From positions 19,343 to 73,922 of the forward strand of contig CABVRR010000004.1 of assembly GCA_902500705.1 (NCBI GenBank): a stretch of DNA of 54,580 bases, in the 5' to 3' direction. Shown here piece after piece: positions 10,975-21,567 of this stretch (its first letter is position 1; every line of letters begins with the position of its first letter). Source of the stretch: an uncultured Nitrospira sp. (GTDB taxonomy: Bacteria > Nitrospirota > Nitrospiria > Nitrospirales > Nitrospiraceae). The notes under the pieces were generated by a model. That model did no database searches. It saw nothing but the letters and a program-made list of their open reading frames with translations, and was not told the DNA's origin. The position numbers and the translations under genes were made by a program.

Positions 10975-11361
10975 TTACGCTTGTCCGACAGACTGGGCGT
11001 GGAGAAACGACCGCATCCGATCCCCATCGTGGAGACCGACTTCCTGAAGTTCTACACCAAACAGAGATCCTCTTGTCCAGGCAACCGTTGCTTCTGAAAC
11101 GAACAGGGGTTCTTCTTCATCCAGAAGATATAAGAATAAGGTCAACTCCATACCCACAGTGACAGGACAATTTCCCCGAATACCCAATCCACCCTCGGAG
11201 AGATCGACAGCATTGCCGTCTCCGATGAGGACATCGTCCCCATGGATGCCTGAGTACATAAGGCCAAAGGAAACACCGATTCTTTTCGCTCTGCGGTGCT
11301 CAATCGAATGGGCTGGGTAAGTGGTTTCCATTCCTTTTGCAGTTTTCATTTGCTTCATCAT
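10975..11361 (-). CDS. PilZ domain protein
   Basis: The protein has 128 residues. After about 20 residues the PilZ domain begins with RRAKR (RxxxR), and the second binding element DLSEGG follows about 30 residues later. Both c-di-GMP-contacting motifs are therefore intact. The start ATG 11361 is strongly supported by AAGGAGG just upstream (the complement of CCTCCTT near 11367), separated by about 5 bases. A second ATG follows immediately. It is a probable cytosolic c-di-GMP receptor without an attached output domain. Its nearest same-strand neighbour is the PilZ gene ending at 11719, 357 bases upstream, so the two may be separate transcripts. Confidence 0.88.
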   Translation of the reverse strand: MMKQMKTAKGMETTYPAHSIEHRRAKRIGVSFGLMYSGIHGDDVLIGDGNAVDLSEGGLGIRGNCPVTVGMELTLFLYLLDEEEPLFVSEATVAWTRGSLFGVELQEVGLHDGDRMRSFLHAQSVGQA

Positions 11362-11718: not shown

Positions 11719-12126
11719 CTATATGAGTCGGAAACGAGTTCGTTGATCACTCACGGTATGGTGGGAGATGCTTTTCCAGATGAATGATTGGAGCCGTTTT
11801 CGATGATCTTGGTTCAGATCCATGAATCGGACAGAAAACTGACAACCTGAGACCCACACAACATGTGCCGATTTTAATAAAAGTTGGGGCAGCCCATCGG
11901 GAAGCGCAATGGTGAGGGTCAGTAATGTCCCACGCGTCACTGGGCGGTCACTAATGACGTGGCACCCGGAAACGGAGATATTTTTTGTGAGTCCTTCACC
12001 TTGGTGCGGCTGTGTGGGAACTTCTCCGACATAGCGGACACGACATGTAATCGCCACGCGCTCAGCATAGCGGTTATCCAAAGGTGCGTAGGATTTTCGA
12101 GTGCTCATCGTAGGTTGCATCATCAT
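11719..12126 (-). CDS. PilZ domain protein
   Basis: The protein has 135 residues and a single PilZ domain. The RxxxR motif is RYAER near residue 20, and the second motif is NISVSG about 30 residues later. Both key elements for cyclic di-GMP binding are thus present. The tail is long and basic (SDQRTRFRLI). Three consecutive Met codons at the 5' end make the exact start uncertain. ATG 12126 gives the longest form, without a strong ribosome binding site. No output domain is fused. It lies downstream of the PEP-mutase fusion gene on the same strand, separated by a probable terminator, so it is likely not part of that unit. Confidence 0.85.
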   Translation of the reverse strand: MMMQPTMSTRKSYAPLDNRYAERVAITCRVRYVGEVPTQPHQGEGLTKNISVSGCHVISDRPVTRGTLLTLTIALPDGLPQLLLKSAHVVWVSGCQFSVRFMDLNQDHRKRLQSFIWKSISHHTVSDQRTRFRLI

Positions 12127-12254: not shown

Positions 12255-13934
12255 TTATTGCCGAATCTTAGCCCAGGCTTTTTGGTACTCTTCGAAAGAA
12301 TCGACCTCCATCCAGCCCTTAAAAATCGGTACGGCTTGGATGCGATAACCCTGGTCGATCAGTTCCTGCAGCATATCGGTGAAAGAAGCCTTGGTAAGAC
12401 TTGCGGACTCGTGAAACGGGGATGACTGATGCTGCGCTTGAGCTTTGCGGTAGCACTCACGCAGAGCGTGAGTCCCCTTCTCTGAGAACATGGCCATGCC
12501 GATGAATTCGCCATGCGCCAGGTCATGTCCAAGTTGTTGGCCGATCTTGACCACCTGGTGCTCGCCTTCCGGCATCACAAATCGGGACAAGTAACTTTTG
12601 CCAGGTGAGACGGCCAGTGAGACAAGATCCGGGTTCAGATGGGTCGGTTGGGCATGCCGTTGCTCCTGATCAAACCAGGCCAGATCGACAACCAGGGCGA
12701 TATCGGCGGGACTCTTGAGCAACTTTTCGAGAATCGAGGTGTCAAAGATGATATCGCCGTACAGAACAATGGTTCGCCCTCGGAGCTCATTCTCAGCACA
12801 GAAAAGCGATGTAAGCTCTCCAGTTTCCTCGTAGCGATCGTTGTCGTAGTAGCGGATATTAGGAAGCGCGATCGCCTCTTTTTTATATCCACGCACCAAC
12901 GCAATATCTTTGATATCGCATTCGTTGAGTGCACTGATCTGGCGATCAAGGATCGTTTTCCCTTTAATGTCGAGTAGACATTTCGGCTTGTCTTCAATCA
13001 ACGGGAGAAGCTGCTTTTCAAACCCGGCCGCAGCGATAATCGCGGTGATTCGTTCACTTCCCACCGGAAGGAAGTGTTTTTCGTCTTGTTCCATTTGCGG
13101 AACGCCGACAATGTCGTACACCTCAGGTAGCGTGACGATTCGGTCGTTCGCGGCTCCAGGGCGGGTGTCCTGCTTGATGAGAGCCAGTGCGTCCGTCATC
13201 GCGCGAATGGCTGCTCGTACCGGCTGATTGGCATAGATGATGATCTTCGCGCCGGCCTCTTCCATTTCCGCTGCGGTGGTTTGGTCGAAAATCGTCGGGA
13301 CCACGACAAGCGGAACGCGCCCGGACCACAACTTGTACACGGCCTTCAGTTCATCGAATTTTTTCGATTTTGAATGGATGAGCACTGCGTCGGCACCCGC
13401 GTCCGCATAGGCTTCGGCCCGCTGCAGCGCTTCGTCTTGTCCCCACCCGGCAATGAGTGCTTCGGTTCTGGCGATGACCATGAATTCTGGGGAAGTCTGA
13501 GCTGCTTTCGCCGCTCGAATTTTACCGCAATGCTCTTCGATGGGGATCAATTCACGTCGCACGCCCGCATAGAAACTGCATCGCTTGGGGTAGACATTAT
13601 CCTCAATGCAAATAGCGGCCACGCCGGCTCGCTCACGGTCGGTGACGGTGCGCATGACATTCAGCGCGTTGCCGTATCCGGTGTCGCAATCAGCAATCAC
13701 GGGAATATTCACGGCTTCGACGATATTTCGCTCGACATCAAGCTGCTCGCTGGACGTGATAAAGCTGGCGTCGGGGATACATTTCAGAGAGGCTGAAATG
13801 GCGAAGCCGCTCGCCCAGACGCCATCGAAACCGGCGCGTTCGATGAGACGGGCGCTCAGCGCATCATGGGCCCCGACAATTTTCACGGCACCAGGGTTTT
13901 TTAAAGCGGCTCGGAGCTTTGCGGCGTTTGTCAT
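12255..13934 (-). CDS. Phosphoenolpyruvate mutase-like / nucleotidyltransferase fusion
   Basis: The protein has 559 residues. Residues 1-290 resemble PEP mutase (isocitrate lyase superfamily), which converts PEP to phosphonopyruvate. Visible are DCDTGYGN (82-89, with the metal-site Asp pair), ARTEALIAGWGQDEAL, the GADAVLIHSK stretch and a VVPT segment. The signature normally written EDK-x5-NS is EDN-x5-CS here (Glu111, Asn113, Lys117, Cys119, Ser120). Residues 296-559 are a nucleotidyltransferase of the LicC/PntC type: PKCLLDIKGK near 317, GDI at 393-395 and WMEVD near 541. Its nucleotide loop is AAGFEKQL rather than AAGxGxRL. I chose ATG 13934 because it begins the domain directly. An upstream ATG at 14021 would add 29 residues without similarity. 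It faces away from the phosphonate-type operon at 15242 and probably supplies its first step. Confidence 0.85.
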   Translation of the reverse strand: MTNAAKLRAALKNPGAVKIVGAHDALSARLIERAGFDGVWASGFAISASLKCIPDASFITSSEQLDVERNIVEAVNIPVIADCDTGYGNALNVMRTVTDRERAGVAAICIEDNVYPKRCSFYAGVRRELIPIEEHCGKIRAAKAAQTSPEFMVIARTEALIAGWGQDEALQRAEAYADAGADAVLIHSKSKKFDELKAVYKLWSGRVPLVVVPTIFDQTTAAEMEEAGAKIIIYANQPVRAAIRAMTDALALIKQDTRPGAANDRIVTLPEVYDIVGVPQMEQDEKHFLPVGSERITAIIAAAGFEKQLLPLIEDKPKCLLDIKGKTILDRQISALNECDIKDIALVRGYKKEAIALPNIRYYDNDRYEETGELTSLFCAENELRGRTIVLYGDIIFDTSILEKLLKSPADIALVVDLAWFDQEQRHAQPTHLNPDLVSLAVSPGKSYLSRFVMPEGEHQVVKIGQQLGHDLAHGEFIGMAMFSEKGTHALRECYRKAQAQHQSSPFHESASLTKASFTDMLQELIDQGYRIQAVPIFKGWMEVDSFEEYQKAWAKIRQ

Positions 13935-14017: not shown

Positions 14018-14521
14018 TCAAAAGGCCGTGGTGGAGGTCTCGTCAGTCAGTTTTTCCGGCAGTGTCCGGCTTTCAAAGAATATGATGCCGCGATCGGACC
14101 CAGCGTCGAATCGCAAGGTGACTTCCGTATGCATGCCGTGCCAGGCGTAAACCTTGACTGAGCCGACAGTGATTTGCCCTGGTGTTCGGTCCAGTGGACC
14201 GTATTGCGACTGAAGATACGTCAGGATTTCTTCGTGCGTCTCTTTGCCGCTGTAGCGAATGACCACTCGACCAAACTTTTTCTCAAAGGTCGTAAACCGT
14301 ATCGAATCGACGGTGGTACGGCCAAATCGAGGAGGTTGTCCTCTCTGCTCATAGGTCTGTATACGGCCGGAGTGCTCGATTTTCACAAAATGTTCGGTTT
14401 CGGACAGGATGGTTCCCCAGGCAATATCCTCAAATCCGTTGGGATCGTTCACGATGGGAACACCGAATGCGGACGATGATGAGTCGAGCAGGCACAGCAT
14501 GACGATCATCACGCGCATCAT
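14018..14521 (-). CDS. Secreted protein, paralogue A
   Basis: From ATG 14521 the protein has 167 residues, with a hydrophobic signal segment (MIVMLCLLDSSSSAFG) and a likely cleavage near SAFG-VPIVN. The mature part shares a pattern with the product of the next upstream gene: NDPxGFxDIxWG, VVIRYxG, PGQ, a WxGxxTE segment and RGxIFxxSRTL. The two are tandem paralogues of an exported family that I do not recognise. An earlier in-frame ATG at 14575 would overlap the upstream gene and give an N-terminus unlike a signal peptide. Only 28 bases separate it from the upstream paralogue, and the PEP-mutase fusion starts 83 bases downstream, so all three are probably cotranscribed. Confidence 0.72.
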   Translation of the reverse strand: MMRVMIVMLCLLDSSSSAFGVPIVNDPNGFEDIAWGTILSETEHFVKIEHSGRIQTYEQRGQPPRFGRTTVDSIRFTTFEKKFGRVVIRYSGKETHEEILTYLQSQYGPLDRTPGQITVGSVKVYAWHGMHTEVTLRFDAGSDRGIIFFESRTLPEKLTDETSTTAF

Positions 14522-14549
14522 CCGCGCTGCGCAATGTCTCTTCCTTGAC

Positions 14550-15083
14550 CTACTCTGCGGAATCGGTAATGTCATCGTTGAACCGTGGCGCAAGCGTGCG
14601 ACTATCGATGAAAATATAGCCACGCTCTGTACCGGCCTGATACGTGAGATTCATTTCGGTGTCGGTCCCACGCCAGTTGTATTGTTGGGTGAGTCCTCGT
14701 GCCATTTGTCCGGGAATGCGTTCCAGTCGACCAAAGTGGCTCTCCAAAAAGTCTATGACTTGTCGATGGGTGTGGCTCCCTTGATATCGAATAACGACGC
14801 GTGCGAATTGATCGTCTACCGAGATAAATACGATGCTGTTCATCTCGGTTTCCGCAAACGACGGAGGGTCTGCCTTACGCTGATATTCGATGATATGCGG
14901 ACCTGTCTGCGTTGCTTCAAGGTCTTGGCGAGAAGATAAGGAGTTTCCCCAAGGAATATCGTGAAATCCCTTCGGATCATTTGCCATGGGAACAGCCCAC
15001 GCCGGGGTAGCGCCGATCACGGCGATAAGTGTCAGGGGTAATACCCACGGAGGAGGTGCTGGTTCGGTGGGACCGTTCATCAT
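14550..15083 (-). CDS. Secreted protein, paralogue B
   Basis: The protein has 177 residues. The N-terminus is a standard signal peptide with a hydrophobic core (WVLPLTLIAVIGA) and cleavage predicted after TPAWA. The mature part begins VPMANDPKGFHDIPWGNSL. It shares the block order of paralogue A, including VVIRYQG, RIPGQ, YNWRGTDTEMNL and RGYIFIDSRTL. It is probably periplasmic or envelope-associated. No catalytic residues or Cys pairs stand out. It is the first gene of a minus-strand unit that ends with the PEP-mutase fusion, and it is divergent from the phosphonate-type operon across 158 bases. A role linked to that pathway is possible only on positional grounds. Confidence 0.75.
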   Translation of the reverse strand: MMNGPTEPAPPPWVLPLTLIAVIGATPAWAVPMANDPKGFHDIPWGNSLSSRQDLEATQTGPHIIEYQRKADPPSFAETEMNSIVFISVDDQFARVVIRYQGSHTHRQVIDFLESHFGRLERIPGQMARGLTQQYNWRGTDTEMNLTYQAGTERGYIFIDSRTLAPRFNDDITDSAE

Positions 15084-15241: not shown

Positions 15242-15739
15242 GTGATTGAAAGCGATGTGTTCGTGCAAGCCCTGCAGGACATGGGCGTCAACTTTTTTAC
15301 CGGCGTGCCGGATTCGATTCTGGGCGGGATCATCGCAGAACTCATGAATCGTCGGATCTACACCCCTGCGGTTCGAGAGGACGAAGCCGTCGGCATGGCT
15401 GCGGGCGCGTACATGGCGGGGAAGACCCCGGCTGTGTTGATGCAGAATTCAGGACTCGGTACCTCGCTCAATACGCTCATCTCTCTGAACATGATTTATA
15501 AGCAACCCTGCATCCTGATCGTGTCATGGCGCGGTCAAGGGGGGAAGGATGCCCCCGAGCATCTCGTGATGGGCGAGGTGATGCCACAGCTGCTGGAGAC
15601 CGTTAAAATCCCGCATCGGACCTTAACCGAAAAAACAGCCGTTGAGGATTTTAGGTGGGTGGCTCAGACGTTCATGACACAACAGATGCCTGTCGCGTTG
15701 TTCATCACCAAGGGCGTTGTAAAGGGGTTGCATCCATGA
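15242..15739 (+). CDS. Phosphonopyruvate decarboxylase-like, TPP-binding N-terminal subunit
   Basis: The protein has 165 residues from GTG 15242, which AGGAGG precedes. It is the pyrimidine-binding half of a TPP enzyme. FFTGVPDSILGG opens the domain, and VREDEAVGMAAGAYMAG carries the Glu (about 46) expected to activate the cofactor. Phosphonopyruvate decarboxylase makes phosphonoacetaldehyde and CO2, pulling the unfavourable PEP mutase equilibrium. The usual enzyme is one chain of about 380 residues, but here two genes overlap by ATGA. Split subunits also occur in sulfopyruvate decarboxylase (ComD/ComE), so that activity cannot be excluded from sequence alone. The neighbouring PEP-mutase-like and PhnW-like genes favour the phosphonate role. 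Confidence 0.82.
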   Translation: MIESDVFVQALQDMGVNFFTGVPDSILGGIIAELMNRRIYTPAVREDEAVGMAAGAYMAGKTPAVLMQNSGLGTSLNTLISLNMIYKQPCILIVSWRGQGGKDAPEHLVMGEVMPQLLETVKIPHRTLTEKTAVEDFRWVAQTFMTQQMPVALFITKGVVKGLHP

Positions 15740-16317
15740 GACCGGAACAAGGCACGTTAATCAGCCGGGCTCAGGCCATGGCGGCTTTACTGGAGTTGTT
15801 GACCGATCAACCGGTCATTATCTGCAACGGGTTTCCTTCGCGTGAGGCGCACAAGATTGCGGATCGGCCCACCCATTTTTATATGATTGGTTCCATGGGT
15901 AATGCCCCGGCCATCGCGCTTGGCGTGGCACTCGCAAAGCCGAACAAACAGGTGATTACCTTCGACGGCGACGGGAATGTGTTGATGGGGATGGGCACGC
16001 TCGCAACGGTCGGTGCGCTGAAGCCGAAAAACTTTATCCACGTCGTCTTCGATAATGAAGTGTACGGAACGACGGGGAACCAGCCCACGATTTCCAACGT
16101 GGTGCCGCTGGAGAAAGTGGCGAAGGCGGCAGGCTACGTGAACGTTGAACGGGTGCTTGATCGTGACGATCTCGTCTATGAGTTCAAAGCCATGCTGAAG
16201 CAGGATGGGCCCAGTATGTTGCTGATCAAGGTCAATGAATTTGTGGAGGATGCCGGGCGTGTCCTGCACGATCCGCCGGAGATCACCCGCCGGTTCATGA
16301 AAGCCATTCAAGGATAG
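15736..16317 (+). CDS. Phosphonopyruvate decarboxylase-like, TPP-binding C-terminal subunit
   Basis: The protein has 193 residues. ATG 15736 overlaps the stop of the preceding gene (ATGA), which implies translational coupling. It is the pyrophosphate-binding half of the TPP enzyme. The metal/TPP motif GDGN is at residues 78-81, and the paired Asn lies at about 107 (VVFDNEVYGTTG). MIGSMGNAPAIALGVALA is also typical of this family. It should form the active enzyme with the preceding subunit and decarboxylate phosphonopyruvate. An in-frame reading could begin further upstream inside the first subunit gene, but that region encodes the end of that subunit. The transaminase gene starts 36 bases downstream with its own AAGGAG site. 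Confidence 0.83.
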   Translation: MRPEQGTLISRAQAMAALLELLTDQPVIICNGFPSREAHKIADRPTHFYMIGSMGNAPAIALGVALAKPNKQVITFDGDGNVLMGMGTLATVGALKPKNFIHVVFDNEVYGTTGNQPTISNVVPLEKVAKAAGYVNVERVLDRDDLVYEFKAMLKQDGPSMLLIKVNEFVEDAGRVLHDPPEITRRFMKAIQG

Positions 16318-16353
16318 AACATTCGTCGCGTTTCCTGAGAAAAGGAGAGAACC

Positions 16354-17436
16354 GTGGTTCTCCTGAATCCTGGGCCGGTCAATGTTTCGGAACGGGTGCG
16401 GCAGGCGTTGCTGAAGCCTGATATCTGTCATCGAGAAGATGAGTTTTTCGAACTGCTTCACCGCATCCAAACGAAACTCCTGAAAGCCTTTGTTCCTGGT
16501 GCCGAATCCGAGTACGTCGCCGTCGTCATGACGGGATCAGGGACGGCTGCCGTCGAAGCCGCCTTGATGTCGTCGCTCCCTCACGGCCGTCGCATGCTCA
16601 TCCTCAACAACGGGGTCTATGGCGAGCGACTGTCTCAAATTGTGGCTCTCCATCGCCTGGGTGTCAGCGAATTGAAGTATGACTGGACGGTACGTCCTGA
16701 CCCGGAGAAACTATTGCTTGCCTTGCGGCAACATCAGGAGGTGCATGTCGTCGGCATGGTGCACCACGAGACCACGACGGGCCTGCTCAACCCGGTCCAT
16801 GAAATCGCCGAGATCGTCGATAATCAGAATCGCGTGTTTGTCCTCGATGCCGTCAGCGCACTGGCGGGAGAGACCATCGACATCGCTCGATCGCACATCT
16901 ACATGGTGACGGGGACGGCGGGTAAGTGTATTCAGGGGTTTCCCGGCGTCTCGTTCGTACTGGTGCGGAAGGGGTTCGTCGAAAAAATGCGCTCGTACCC
17001 GAAGCGTTCATGGTATCTCCATCTCACCCATTACATCGATAACGAAGGGCGAGGCACGATTCCCTTCACGCCTGCAGTACAGGTCTACTATGCCTTCGAT
17101 GAAGCCCTCAGCGAGCTGCTCGAAGAGGGCGTAGCCACCCGCATCCAACGGTACAAGAAGATGGCGACGCTGATCCGCGGCCGAATGGCCAGACTTGGAG
17201 TGAAGGCGCTATTACCGGCGGACCAACAGTCGAATACCATCACTGCCTACCACCTGCCTGAAGGGATCCCGTACCAGACGTTGCACGACCGCCTCAAGCA
17301 GCAGGGCTATGTCATTTATGCCGGTCAAGGCAACTTGGAAAACAAGATTTTTCGCGTAGCCAACATGGGCGCATTATCCGAAGCGCAGTTCGGCGGGTTT
17401 CTTGACGCCTTTGAACAGGTGTGTAAAACGGCATGA
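16354..17436 (+). CDS. 2-aminoethylphosphonate-pyruvate transaminase-like aminotransferase
   Basis: The protein has 360 residues from GTG 16354 with AAGGAG upstream. It is a fold-type I PLP enzyme of the PhnW / alanine-glyoxylate transaminase group. The N-terminus reads LLNPGPVNVSERV and then CHREDEF, the glycine-rich MTGSGTAAVEAA contacts PLP, and Asp165 lies in FVLDAVSAL. The Schiff-base Lys is about 191 in GTAGKCIQGFPG. PhnW interconverts phosphonoacetaldehyde and 2-aminoethylphosphonate with alanine/pyruvate. In a biosynthetic cluster it would run toward 2-aminoethylphosphonate. The gene follows the decarboxylase by 36 bases and overlaps the next nucleotidyltransferase gene by 4 bases. 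A plain alanine-glyoxylate role is possible but less likely in this context. Confidence 0.85.
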   Translation: MVLLNPGPVNVSERVRQALLKPDICHREDEFFELLHRIQTKLLKAFVPGAESEYVAVVMTGSGTAAVEAALMSSLPHGRRMLILNNGVYGERLSQIVALHRLGVSELKYDWTVRPDPEKLLLALRQHQEVHVVGMVHHETTTGLLNPVHEIAEIVDNQNRVFVLDAVSALAGETIDIARSHIYMVTGTAGKCIQGFPGVSFVLVRKGFVEKMRSYPKRSWYLHLTHYIDNEGRGTIPFTPAVQVYYAFDEALSELLEEGVATRIQRYKKMATLIRGRMARLGVKALLPADQQSNTITAYHLPEGIPYQTLHDRLKQQGYVIYAGQGNLENKIFRVANMGALSEAQFGGFLDAFEQVCKTA

Positions 17437-18152
17437 AGGCGGTCATCCTTGCAGCCGGAGTCGGAAAGCGTCTGTGGGAAATCACCCAACATCGCCCGAA
17501 ATGTCTCATCGAGATCGGTGGTCGGACGCTCCTGCATCGCTACTTAGAGTCGCTGGCCTCCGTCGGGATTCGTCGGGCAGAGATGGTCGTCGGGTATAAG
17601 CAGGAGATGATTCGTGCGGCGGTTGCACAGGATTCGTGCGGCGTCGATGTGACGTTTCTGGTCAACGAACAGTTTCATAAAGGCAGTATTTCTTCGCTGT
17701 GGATCGCACGAACCGCGCTTGACGACGATGTCGTCGTGATGGATGCCGACGTGCTGTTTCATCCGGAAATCCTCAGGCGTTTGGTGTCTTCCTCTGCTGA
17801 GAATGCGCTGCTGATGGATGAGACCGTAAAGCAGACCGGAGAGGAATGTATGGTCGTCGTGGCGGGCAGCCGGGTGATCGCCCTCACGAAGCAGATGCCG
17901 TCTCAGTACGATTATGCCGGGGAAGGGGTTGGATTTCTTCGAGTGCGGCATGCCGACGCGCCTCGCGTGGTCTCGTCGCTTCGTGACTGTCTCGACAAAA
18001 ACTTGTGGGAGATGGAGTACGAAGACGCGCTGCGACAGTATTTCCAGGATGTGCGGGTCGGGTATGAACGGATCGGGGGACTACCCTGGACCGAGATCGA
18101 TTTCATCGAAGACGTAAGAAAGGCAGAATTGGAAGTTTTGCCGAGATTGTGA
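17433..18152 (+). CDS. Nucleotidyltransferase, PntC/LicC-like
   Basis: The protein has 239 residues. ATG 17433 overlaps the transaminase stop codon. All signatures of a sugar-phosphate or phosphocholine-type nucleotidyltransferase are intact: AAGVGKRL at 7-14, PKCLIEIGGR with Lys23, the metal Asp pair in MDADV (104-106) and a C-terminal WTEIDFIED segment. PntC and LicC transfer CMP from CTP onto 2-aminoethylphosphonate or phosphocholine. The direct coupling to a PhnW-like gene fits CTP:2-aminoethylphosphonate cytidylyltransferase, as in the PntC-transaminase fusion of Treponema. The exact nucleotide and substrate are inferred. This is the only one of the three such domains in the region with a canonical loop. 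Confidence 0.82.
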   Translation: MKAVILAAGVGKRLWEITQHRPKCLIEIGGRTLLHRYLESLASVGIRRAEMVVGYKQEMIRAAVAQDSCGVDVTFLVNEQFHKGSISSLWIARTALDDDVVVMDADVLFHPEILRRLVSSSAENALLMDETVKQTGEECMVVVAGSRVIALTKQMPSQYDYAGEGVGFLRVRHADAPRVVSSLRDCLDKNLWEMEYEDALRQYFQDVRVGYERIGGLPWTEIDFIEDVRKAELEVLPRL

Positions 18153-18246
18153 GAGAGTCTTCATTGATGGGATGCCCGACAGAGAAGGCTTTCGTCCCAG
18201 AGCTTACAGGGGCTATTGGTGAGCGTGTTCCGTCGACGATAACGCC

Positions 18247-19683
18247 ATGAGTAAGGGGATCCTTCAAAGGAAAGCTGAAATCCAAGGATTGGCGACGGCT
18301 ATTTTGCTGCCGTCTGTCAGGTTGTTTGGCTACCCGATAGAGTCGCAGGTCGAGGATCTTGGACCGTTGACGCGGGTTGTGGGAATTGGGCTTTTTCAGC
18401 GGGCCGTGCTTACGCTGCAACGGGCCGGCATTCGTCAATTGATCGTCTTATCCGGTCCTGAAGAAGAGCAGCTCAAGCAGGAGCTCAGTAAGGGACCTCA
18501 TGTCACGATCCCTGTCCGATGGATGCCGATTCGTGAATTTCCCCTTGAGGATTCTCGAACCTGGGAAGCCCTGGCGGCCGAAGTACATGGCTTTGCATTG
18601 GTCGCGAGCGTCGATAGCGTGTTTTCCCGAGGGTTGATCGAACGGTTACGGCGCGACGTGCAGGACGGTCAGGCCATTGTGGTGTCTCAGGCTCCGCAGA
18701 GACAGGTCGATCAGCTCTTGGTGCAAGGCTTACGGTCGAACATCTCGTCAGGTCGTCCGGCGGTCTTCGCGACGCCGTATTTCAACGATCCGACCTTGCG
18801 TGTCGCTGAGTTGGTCGTCGTGCCCGCCAGTCTGATGAGTGCCACGAATCACGCGGTGGGTGAGAAGGGGAGTCCTCCGATCCGCCAGTGGCTCGAGCGA
18901 GCTGCGGCAGATGGTCGCATGCGTATCGTCTCGACCGATGAGAAGAGAGAGAATTGGTATCAGTCCGTTCGAACCCTCGCTGACGTCCAAGCAGCTGAAA
19001 AGAAGTTGTTCAATTCGCTCAAGGGAGAGTTTGAGGGGTTCGTCGATCGATATTTCAATCGTAAGATCTCACGCTGGTTCACACGTCTGTTTCTCGTCAT
19101 GGGGTTGTCGCCCAATTCGATCACGGTCCTTGCCGGGCTGATTGGCATGCTTGCAGCGGCCGGATTTGGGATGGGCACGTATGGCGCCGGGATTGTGGCC
19201 GCCCTCCTTTTTCAATTGGCAGCCATCATTGATTGCTGCGATGGTGAAGTTGCGCGGTTGACCTTTACCGAGTCCCCATTGGGAGCTTGGCTCGATATCG
19301 CCTTGGACAACCTTGTCCATATGGCGATTTTTGCTGGTATTGCGGTGGGACTCTACACGACTCACATCGGACAACCGGAGGACTGGATTCCTCTCGCGCT
19401 CGGCGTCGCCGCGGTATTCGGCAACGTTCTTTCATTCTTGCTCGTCGGCAAGGCACAAAAGATTAAAACGGTGAGTGGCTGGAGAGCCCCTACTCATGCG
19501 GCCTGGGCGGACGTCATGTTGAAAAATGTCGCCAGCCGCGATTTCTCAGCGGCCTTGCTGGGTTTTGCCCTATTCGATCAACTCTACTGGTTCCTTTTCT
19601 TTGCAGCGGCCGGTTCCTTGTTGTTTGCCGGCGCCATGATGTGGGTCACTCGTCCATCTGCCGTCTCGTCTGCTCGGCTGTAA
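18247..19683 (+). CDS. Nucleotidyltransferase-like / CDP-alcohol phosphotransferase fusion
   Basis: The protein has 478 residues. Residues 1-250 look like a nucleotidyltransferase fold that has lost its canonical glycine loop. Residues 260-470 form an integral-membrane CDP-alcohol phosphotransferase with several helices. The full signature is present: Asp329, Asp332-Gly333, Ala336-Arg337, Gly346, Asp350, Asp354 (spacing D-x2-DG-x2-AR-x8-G-x3-D-x3-D). Such enzymes transfer a phospho-alcohol from a CDP or CMP donor to a lipid or polyol acceptor at the membrane. The layout resembles the fused inositol-1-phosphate cytidylyltransferase / di-inositol phosphate synthase. In this cluster a CMP-phosphonate donor is a reasonable guess. 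It starts at ATG 18247, 94 bases after the preceding gene, with a weak ribosome binding site. Confidence 0.83.
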   Translation: MSKGILQRKAEIQGLATAILLPSVRLFGYPIESQVEDLGPLTRVVGIGLFQRAVLTLQRAGIRQLIVLSGPEEEQLKQELSKGPHVTIPVRWMPIREFPLEDSRTWEALAAEVHGFALVASVDSVFSRGLIERLRRDVQDGQAIVVSQAPQRQVDQLLVQGLRSNISSGRPAVFATPYFNDPTLRVAELVVVPASLMSATNHAVGEKGSPPIRQWLERAAADGRMRIVSTDEKRENWYQSVRTLADVQAAEKKLFNSLKGEFEGFVDRYFNRKISRWFTRLFLVMGLSPNSITVLAGLIGMLAAAGFGMGTYGAGIVAALLFQLAAIIDCCDGEVARLTFTESPLGAWLDIALDNLVHMAIFAGIAVGLYTTHIGQPEDWIPLALGVAAVFGNVLSFLLVGKAQKIKTVSGWRAPTHAAWADVMLKNVASRDFSAALLGFALFDQLYWFLFFAAAGSLLFAGAMMWVTRPSAVSSARL

Positions 19684-19708
19684 ATGCCGTGTTTGCCATC
19701 CGACTAAC

Positions 19709-20713
19709 GTGTTGCGCTATATCCTACTCGCCCTTGGTCTCATCGTTCTGAGCCTTCTTATCTGGCGTAGCGGTCCAGCCAATATCTACGAGGCTGCAAT
19801 CAGACTCGGTCCGACAGCCTTGCTCGCCATCCTGATCCCTTCCGTCATCATGTATTGCGTTGAAGCCTATGGATGGCATGTCGTACTGGGACGCGCGGCA
19901 CAAAGAGTTTCATTTTGGCGACTGCTGACGATTCGGACCGCCGGCGAGGTGGTGAATATGACGACACCGGCTTATCTGGCGGGAGAGCCGTTAAAGGCGT
20001 ATTTGCTTAAAAAATACGATGTTTCTCTGGCGGAGGGCGCGGCGTCCGTCGTGATTGCGAAGACGACCATGACGATTGCTGAAGTCTTCTATATCCTCAT
20101 AGGGATTGCCCTTACCTTTTGGATTCTTGGCACCGGGAGCTCAGCGGGGCAGACGATTACAGCAGCCCTGTTGAGCGTCGGACTGCTGGTGTGCTCAATC
20201 GTGGGGTTTGTATTGATCCAACAGCGTGGGCTGTTTGCCTCGATACTCTCAGTGGTCAAGAGATTGGGTGTGCGCATTCGGTTTTTGGAAGCACAGGAAG
20301 AGCAGCTGCACTCGATCGACCAAACGATTCGCAATTTCTACCGCCATCATCAAAAGGCCTTTTATGTGTCGATCGGGGTCTACTTTGTGGGCTGGTTGGC
20401 TGAATCGGTGGAAGTGTTTGGAATCATCTATATGCTCGGGGGTTCGGTGAGTGTGTGGTCTGCGTTCGCGATCGGGGCGCTCGCGGTGTTTATCAAAGGC
20501 GGATCCTCCTTTATTCCAGGCAGCGTGGGTGCTCAAGATGCCGGGAATCTTTTGTTGCTTCAAGCATTCGGCTACAGTGACCTGACGGGGATCACTTTTG
20601 CGCTGCTGCGGAGGTTTCGCGAGTTAGTCTGGATTGCGATCGGACTACTCTGCTTGGCCGTGGTGGGGAAACACGGAATAGACCAGGCTCAACGAACCGA
20701 GGGCCTTTCCTGA
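19709..20713 (+). CDS. LPG synthase TM / flippase-like membrane protein
   Basis: The protein has 334 residues with about seven or eight hydrophobic helices. It belongs by pattern to the lysylphosphatidylglycerol synthase transmembrane (UPF0104) family. It has an N-terminal helix pair and the conserved GEVVNMTTPAYLAGEPLKAYLL stretch (20 residues quoted as separate blocks GEVVNMTTP and AYLAGEPLKA). There is also GGSSFIPGSVGAQDAGNLLL near the C-terminus. Family members move lipid-linked substrates across the membrane, so it could flip the product of the preceding phosphotransferase. The start is GTG 19709, 25 bases after the preceding stop, without a clear ribosome binding site. Its 3' end overlaps the convergent PilZ gene by 25 bases. 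It is the last gene of the plus-strand operon. Confidence 0.8.
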   Translation: MLRYILLALGLIVLSLLIWRSGPANIYEAAIRLGPTALLAILIPSVIMYCVEAYGWHVVLGRAAQRVSFWRLLTIRTAGEVVNMTTPAYLAGEPLKAYLLKKYDVSLAEGAASVVIAKTTMTIAEVFYILIGIALTFWILGTGSSAGQTITAALLSVGLLVCSIVGFVLIQQRGLFASILSVVKRLGVRIRFLEAQEEQLHSIDQTIRNFYRHHQKAFYVSIGVYFVGWLAESVEVFGIIYMLGGSVSVWSAFAIGALAVFIKGGSSFIPGSVGAQDAGNLLLLQAFGYSDLTGITFALLRRFRELVWIAIGLLCLAVVGKHGIDQAQRTEGLS

Positions 20714-21060
20714 AGGATCTCCTGAAATCGCTCGACCATGCGATCCCACACAAACCCGTGGAGCCGAAAATCAGCAGCCCGCTCCACCTTGTGAAACTGA
20801 AGCCCTATCCGATTCCCTCGGATCCATCGGACCTCCGCTTCTTCGACCGAGAGCGACTGTGTTTGATCCGGGAGGATCAGCCGCACGCGGAGTGTGGTTC
20901 GCTGCGGTGCGGCATCGGCGCACTCGATCGCGCAACCGAACACTGTGAGGTTGGTTACTTTCCCTTCCGCGATCGTTTCCGTGTCAGAAAACATCACGGG
21001 ATACTGCACGGTAAGTGGAACCCGATAATGGTGTCGAAAATAGGGCCGTGTGGATTCCAT
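20689..21060 (-). CDS. PilZ domain protein, second motif altered
   Basis: From ATG 21060 the protein has 123 residues. RHHYR provides the RxxxR motif. The second element reads NLTVFG, with Thr in place of the usual Ser. Binding of c-di-GMP is therefore likely but less certain than for the other PilZ proteins. A longer form from GTG 21120 is possible and would add a charged N-terminal tail. Neither start has a good ribosome binding site. The gene is convergent with the flippase-like gene and overlaps its end. A second PilZ gene lies 49-108 bases upstream on the same strand, depending on the start used. Confidence 0.8.
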   Translation of the reverse strand: MESTRPYFRHHYRVPLTVQYPVMFSDTETIAEGKVTNLTVFGCAIECADAAPQRTTLRVRLILPDQTQSLSVEEAEVRWIRGNRIGLQFHKVERAADFRLHGFVWDRMVERFQEILQERPSVR

Positions 21061-21168
21061 GGAGGCCCAGTGTAGTCGGATTTCTGAGGTAGCTGAATCC
21101 CTCTTTCGCGGGGACAACACAAGTTCTCAACGTTGTCCGGATTCTCTCGCAATGAGAGCGATGCCTAT

Positions 21169-21567
21169 TCAGGCGGAGTAATACTTATTGAGGTGTTCAC
21201 GCTGGAATTGGATGATATGCCGGATCAACAGTTCTCGATCCTGATTGGCCATCCTGACGAAGCGACCGTGGAGGCGATACGTGTTGAGTGGGTAGGTAAT
21301 GGGATCAACATACAACACTTCCAGGCAGGCCTTAAAGTGCACCTGTTCGGGAAGGAGCAGGGTGCACGAGAGAATGTCGTTGGGTTGAAAAAGCTCGTGG
21401 ACCACCAAACCGATGCCGCCGGCGCTCAGATTGACGGATTGCTTGATCGGTATGATCTCCGCGCTGTCGCTCTCAGACTGAAGGCAGATGGGCAAGGTAA
21501 CGGTGATGCGATAAAACTCGCGGCGATCTGCCGGAGATGGCTGTGGGGTCGGGGTGTCTGCTGCCAT
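21169..21567 (-). CDS. PilZ domain protein
   Basis: The protein has 132 residues. A Pro-rich leader of about 14 residues is followed by RREFYR, containing RxxxR. NLSAGG supplies the second c-di-GMP-binding element. The domain then runs to about residue 115 and ends in a short basic tail. It is a single-domain cytosolic receptor without an output module. The start ATG 21567 lacks a ribosome binding site, but a TATACT-like element lies about 10 bases upstream on this strand, which could mean a nearly leaderless message. It sits in tandem with another PilZ gene, together forming a pair that ends the phosphonate-type region. Confidence 0.85.
   Translation of the reverse strand: MAADTPTPQPSPADRREFYRITVTLPICLQSESDSAEIIPIKQSVNLSAGGIGLVVHELFQPNDILSCTLLLPEQVHFKACLEVLYVDPITYPLNTYRLHGRFVRMANQDRELLIRHIIQFQREHLNKYYSA

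Follow-up and report, generated by a model that had tools for sequence, protein, structure and literature searches.

The window analysed here, a stretch of 54,580 nucleotides from an uncultured Nitrospira sp., a nitrite oxidiser, very probably encodes a working PEP mutase of a variant type, in which the signature EDK-x5-NS is replaced by EDN-x5-CS (hereafter EDN-CS, as opposed to the canonical EDK-NS), fused to a cytidylyltransferase; sequence, family placement, gene cluster and natural exchange with the canonical enzyme are shown, whereas what it catalyses, what Cys119 does and how the pathway continues are inferred. The gene and its parts are as follows.

12255..13934, minus strand: fusion of a PEP mutase (EDN-x5-CS type) and a MobA/LicC-like nucleotidyltransferase, 559 aa (translation, PF13714, PF12804, TIGR02320)
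13575..13604, minus strand: variant motif E111-D-N113-V-Y-P-K117-R-C119-S120 (translation, alignment)
13065..13934, minus strand: PEP mutase domain, residues 1-290 (AlphaFold2 model and PDB fold matches)
12255..13049, minus strand: nucleotidyltransferase domain, approximately residues 296-559, probable AEP cytidylyltransferase, PntC-like, its specificity being deduced (PF12804, LicC 1jyk)

Motif, fold and family placement

The 559-residue open reading frame starts with the ATG at 13934, with the Cys119 codon (TGC) at 13578-13580 and the Asn113 codon (AAT) at 13596-13598, all on the minus strand. A sequence-only reading had proposed that the Asn of PEP mutase (Asn122 of the mussel enzyme) is Cys119 here, within KRCS, that Lys116 in mussel numbering is Asn, and that the Glu, Asp, second Lys and Ser of the motif are retained; alignment bears out each point, with mussel E114 D115 K116 ... 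K120 T121 N122 S123 paired with E111 D112 N113 ... K117 R118 C119 S120. Sequencing error, pseudogene formation and chance were considered as origins of the motif and rejected, the motif being constant across the matches from 50 Nitrospiraceae genomes and in all sequences read. Both the fusion to a nucleotidyltransferase and the opposite-strand phosphonate cluster at 15242-20713 were absent from that reading.

Residues 9-252 match PF13714 (PEP_mutase; 196.7 bits) and residues 316-433 match PF12804 (40.6 bits), with the C-terminal domain also matching LicC (1jyk). Among NCBIfam models, PEP mutase ranks first (271 bits), followed by phosphonopyruvate hydrolase (PPH; 261) and methylisocitrate lyase (202), each score lying below the respective cut-off (271.3 bits against the TIGR02320 equivalog cut-off of 319.55; 261 against 374.4 for TIGR02321; 202 against 354 for prpB); other EDN-CS members score 240-286 bits on TIGR02320, versus 380-405 for canonical PEP mutases. 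The sub-cut-off TIGR02320 score and the nearly equal PPH score count against the mutase reading, as does the function attributed to mussel Asn122, named in the sequence-only reading and reviewed in PMC7916636, on which its replacement should inactivate the enzyme. Comparison with solved structures returned Streptomyces PEP mutase 5unc as the top match, and the AlphaFold2 model of the PEP mutase domain (pLDDT 94, pTM 0.92; confidence lower near the lid, residues 111-130) matches 5unc (TM 0.97) and mussel 1pym (0.96) more closely than PPH (0.93) or lyases (0.87-0.91). The protein thus resembles canonical PEP mutase (PepM/Ppm/AepX; 1pym/1s2v, 5unc; TIGR02320) in fold, Mg2+- and phosphoryl-site residues, PF12804 fusion and phosphonate context, and departs from it in the motif, in F44, R127 and Q237, where the canonical enzyme has L, Q and H, and in its score under the equivalog cut-off, at 37-52% identity to the solved enzymes.

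Diagnostic columns were compared across 21 EDN-CS, 27 EDK-NS, 9 PPH-like and 11 lyase-like sequences. Seven of the eight two-way columns are PEP-mutase-like in EDN-CS (S120, E158, L185, H187, S188, V212 and A235) and C119 alone is lyase-like; N113 and R127 are specific to EDN-CS, which also departs from PEP mutase at F44 and Q237. The Mg2+- and phosphoryl-site residues D55, D82, D84, E111, R156, H187 and S120 are present, corresponding to mussel D58, D85, D87, E114, R159, H190 and S123 (roles reviewed in PMC7916636), and are invariant at 50-100% identity.

A maximum-likelihood tree built without the motif columns, with 11 lyases included, joins EDN-CS, PEP mutase and PPH at 100/100, apart from the lyases; the alignment and tree that the sequence-only reading had proposed place EDN-CS with the mutases and hydrolases. 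All EDK rows, mutases and hydrolases together, form one clade (99/96), with the EDN-CS rows branching basal to it. A tree with EDN-CS forced into a single clade was not rejected (AU p = 0.259); on these sequences EDN-CS may be a sister clade of the EDK enzymes or a grade ancestral to them, and the long branches of several basal rows add to the doubt. The earlier description of the rest of the domain as PEP-mutase-like agrees with the columns, the tree grouping and the closest folds.

It is highly improbable that the protein is a methylisocitrate- or oxaloacetate-type lyase, with Cys119 as general acid, lying beside phosphonate genes by accident. 2-Methylisocitrate lyase PrpB and its relatives (EDQ..K[KR]CGH) share with EDN-CS the superfamily and the loop Cys, and Cys119 is invariant, equals the lyase residue at its column and stands in a K-[KR]-C run common to lyases, so the resemblance to KRCGH noted earlier holds at that column but does not extend to the other seven. 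There, EDN-CS carries the PEP-mutase residues H187, E158, S188, V212, A235 and S120, whose lyase counterparts are E, D, A, N, P and G, and N113 contrasts with the EDQ of the lyases; the tree separation, the prpB score and the mutual exclusion with canonical PEP mutase described below also argue against a lyase. EDN-CS genomes hold, in addition, separate family members of ~300 aa, and the two that were read (L143 and L144) are both EDQ..KKCGH lyases.

PPH (Variovorax 2dua; TIGR02321) is closer, resembling EDN-CS in fold, Mg2+ site, F44 and the lack of Asn at the 122 position, where it has Thr or Ser, and its model scores near that of PEP mutase. A PPH-like enzyme degrading phosphonopyruvate is nonetheless very unlikely: PPH enzymes are standalone proteins with EDK-x5-TS and make up a separate EDK-x5-[TS]S clade within the EDK group, with EDN-CS outside it, and a hydrolase would destroy the substrate of the adjoining decarboxylase (Ppd) and transaminase, for which EDN-CS-only genomes have no other source.

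The divergent phosphonate cluster

The preferred reading, a working mutase, is consistent with the genes beside it, which are transcribed divergently from the EDN-CS gene, with two short minus-strand open reading frames between.

15242..15739, plus strand: PpdA, phosphonopyruvate/sulfopyruvate decarboxylase N-terminal half (TIGR03297 130.6 bits, TIGR03845 117.3 bits)
15736..16317, plus strand: PpdB, decarboxylase C-terminal (TPP-binding) half (TIGR03297 176.3 bits, TIGR03846 183.4 bits), start codon assigned from the frame
16354..17436, plus strand: 2-aminoethylphosphonate transaminase, AEPT (TIGR03301 354.2 bits, cut-off 360.8)
17433..18152, plus strand: second nucleotidyltransferase, PntC-like (PF12804, PF00483)
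18247..19683, plus strand: CDP-alcohol phosphatidyltransferase with an N-terminal nucleotidyltransferase-like part (PF01066 43.4 bits, NF041135 97 bits)
19709..20713, plus strand: HpnL/LPG-synthase-TM flippase-like membrane protein (PF03706 122 bits; TIGR00374 73.8 bits, above cut-off)

By gene content this is a phosphonolipid-type cluster, as judged from sequence, in which the CDP-alcohol phosphatidyltransferase probably transfers the phosphonate head group to lipid; Ppd and AEPT of the window score below their family cut-offs. Nearly all Nitrospiraceae EDN-CS loci with sufficient flank share this arrangement, with PpdA/B and AEPT next to the mutase gene, and in Acidobacteria and Planctomycetes the Ppd genes directly follow the PEP mutase gene where both share one gene run. 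A Mycetohabitans locus (L213) carries a cluster of the same six functions (aepX-aepY-AEPT-cytidylyltransferase-CDP-alcohol transferase-LPG-synthase protein), likewise of AEP phosphonolipid type, but with a canonical EDK-NS mutase, a single-chain Ppd and another gene order. According to PMC6697681, AEP is activated by fusions of PEP mutase with a nucleotidyltransferase, and CMP-AEP is the product of pathway cytidylyltransferases, which are often joined to PEP mutase; Treponema Tde1415 and other PEP mutase-PntC fusions resemble the window protein in that the cytidylyltransferase for AEP is encoded alongside pathway enzymes or in one chain with them, although those fusions were selected by EDKX5NS and the proteins tested did not include EDN-CS.

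The interval separating PpdA from the PEP mutase gene contains two tandem, similar and probably secreted proteins (14018-14623 and 14550-15083, minus strand), which share an NDPxGFxDIxWG start and matched no Pfam family. On either side of the cluster are PilZ proteins, four in all, each separately encoded and of a single domain, which may read c-di-GMP (10975-11361, 11719-12126, 20689-21120 and 21169-21567, minus strand).

Exchange of mutase types in Nitrospiraceae

PEP mutase was found in 151 of 175 Nitrospiraceae genomes, 50 with EDN-CS and 101 with EDK-NS, types being assigned by identity to the query (>=79% for EDN-CS, 40-44% for EDK-NS) and motifs read in fetched examples. Both types together occurred in none of the 175, against ~29 expected under independence; second PEP-mutase-family matches in three genomes (G311, G312 and G289) are ~300-aa relatives. 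The complete chromosome of N. moscoviensis and genome G204 have EDN-CS as their sole PEP mutase, and the genome of the window itself (86% complete) contains one full PF13714 match and one weak. A second, canonical PEP mutase doing the real work was rejected as an explanation, given the single full match in that genome and the absence of both types together.

Orthologous Ppd and CDP-alcohol transferase occur in 50/50 EDN-CS genomes. For PEP mutase of either type and CDP-alcohol transferase, 147 genomes have both, 11 lack both, and 4 and 13 have a single one (Fisher p = 3e-8, without correction for ancestry); the 13 with the transferase and without PEP mutase are mostly incomplete, as are many of the single cases overall. 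The orthologous cluster is also retained in most of the 101 EDK-NS genomes. Two Nitrospiraceae EDK-NS fusions that were checked pass the TIGR02320 cut-off (380 and 397 bits). EDK-NS genes in Nitrospira have variable surroundings, with the PpdA-PpdB-AEPT-NTP-CDP-alcohol transferase-flippase cluster elsewhere in the genome; the possibility that the canonical Nitrospira mutase has its own phosphonate operon was rejected on account of these variable neighbours, with no Ppd found adjoining.

Six EDK-NS genomes contain a broken EDN-CS remnant, with deletions and stops, upstream of PpdA, divergent as before and beside an intact cluster; on the PpdA-PpdB-AEPT tree these six make up a single clade, not far from the EDN-CS clade that lies closest to the window, and mutase type changes at least 6 times across the tree. 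The mutual exclusion, the switches and the remnants beside intact clusters together indicate that conversion of PEP to phosphonopyruvate is the most likely reaction of EDN-CS; on the simplest reading of these sequences, both mutase types perform the same reaction for the same pathway. That the PEP mutase domain is inactive, with only the fused nucleotidyltransferase in use, could be argued from the two altered signature residues, yet is scarcely credible given the invariant metal- and phosphoryl-site residues, the status of EDN-CS as the only PEP mutase in its genomes, and the loss of both domains in the decayed genes, with an EDK-NS fusion elsewhere in the genome. The sequence-only reading had left two options, a mutase with altered residues or an enzyme with a different reaction; the columns, tree, cluster and swap favour the former, and the methylisocitrate lyase form of the latter finds no support.

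The transaminase and decarboxylase are not themselves diagnostic of substrate. Seven genomes (L151-L157, in G060, G220, G295, G143, G397, G393 and G395, the first five complete) carry PpdAB and AEPT orthologues of 63-70% identity without PEP mutase and without CDP-alcohol transferase, so that Ppd-AEPT alone is no proof of substrate and PpdAB-AEPT may have another use in such genomes; a Pfam search of 10 open reading frames neighbouring the mutase-less PpdAB-AEPT found nothing metabolic. On one Nitrospirota chromosome (L158, G298), EDN-CS and PpdAB are present, but a genome-wide search for AEP transaminase at E 1e-30 found none, and a 30-residue match is all that is left after PpdB; the end product there may therefore differ.

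These mutase-less genera, the sub-cut-off family scores and the roughly equal scores of PpdA/B on sulfopyruvate decarboxylase models are compatible with a mutase or transferase acting on a related but different substrate, in a cluster making another head group (sulfonate or phosphinate) and not AEP. This is very unlikely, as in 101 Nitrospiraceae genomes the mutase is EDK-NS, most with the orthologous cluster, and the two examples scored lie well above the TIGR02320 cut-off; the phosphinate route, moreover, itself needs phosphonopyruvate first, as in the bialaphos pathway.

Proposed mechanism, motif spread and implications

For the variant PEP mutase, the following course is proposed. Mg2+ would be bound by D82, D84, E111 and D55 and the phosphoryl group held by R156, H187 and S120, as in known PEP mutases, and the phosphoryl of PEP would move from oxygen to C3 via a metaphosphate-like state, with phosphonopyruvate as the product. 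PpdA and PpdB, encoded by genes of their own, would pull this unfavourable equilibrium towards phosphonoacetaldehyde, in keeping with the known role of Ppd in driving the reversible mutase reaction toward phosphonates (PMC11066067); AEPT would then yield 2-aminoethylphosphonate, the cytidylyltransferase CMP-AEP, and the CDP-alcohol transferase would place AEP on lipid, which the flippase-like protein would handle. In the mobile active-site lid, Cys119, with Asn113, Arg118 and the family-specific Arg127, would replace Asn122 and Lys116. Cys119 may act as a lid filler like Asn122, or may be catalytic; that Asn113 or Arg127 takes over the contact of Asn122 is speculation.

Relatives' loci were drawn from the phylum Nitrospirota and the GTDB collection. 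EDN-[VIL][YF]-PKRCSFY is constant in every intact Nitrospirota EDN-CS fusion recovered (62-100% identity), and Acidobacteria and Planctomycetes fusions (54-56% identity) mostly have EDN-[VLM][YF]-PKRCSFY; a standalone Acidobacteria protein (L088) has EDN-QYPKRCSLY and L209 has EDS-AFPKRCSFF. In a DPANN archaeon bin (L093, 892-1746), a standalone PEP-mutase-like protein adjoining Ppd halves bears EDN-PFPKRNS, and its Asn at both signature positions makes it, by sequence, a possible evolutionary intermediate; a Streptomyces protein (L099) with EDK-VFPKRNS is also listed as having an intermediate motif.

Further departures from EDKX5NS were observed inside the PEP mutase clade (L104, EDQ..KINS; L215, EDS..KMNS; L080 and L081, EEK..NS), so the opening three residues of the motif vary more than surveys take for granted.

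A tentative proposal, which we rate as possible without favouring it, is that EDN-KRCS enzymes are a surviving ancestral PEP mutase grade: C-P bond formation would have arisen in a lyase-like enzyme that still had the loop Cys, with Cys to Asn and Asn to Lys following later (EDQ-KRCG, EDN-KRCS, EDN-KRNS, EDK-KxNS), and Cys119 would possibly be catalytic.

The EDKX5NS motif was required in three surveys (PMC6697681, PMC8931226 and PMC12723261), in the first of which the filter removed 22 domain-fused family members; since EDN-x5-CS fails this requirement, all three exclude EDN-CS enzymes. By that criterion some Acidobacteria, a part of Nitrospira that includes N. moscoviensis, and other organisms would be counted as non-producers despite having the whole pathway. 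The open-access literature yielded no earlier description of the EDN-x5-CS variant or of Nitrospira phosphonates, and no EDN-CS protein with a biochemical assay. The interest of the EDN-CS enzymes lies mainly in signature-residue chemistry, family evolution and phosphonate inventories: as a natural variant swapped with the canonical enzyme several times, they allow the part played by Asn122 in forming the C-P bond to be tested, and they offer possible intermediates between lyases and mutases.
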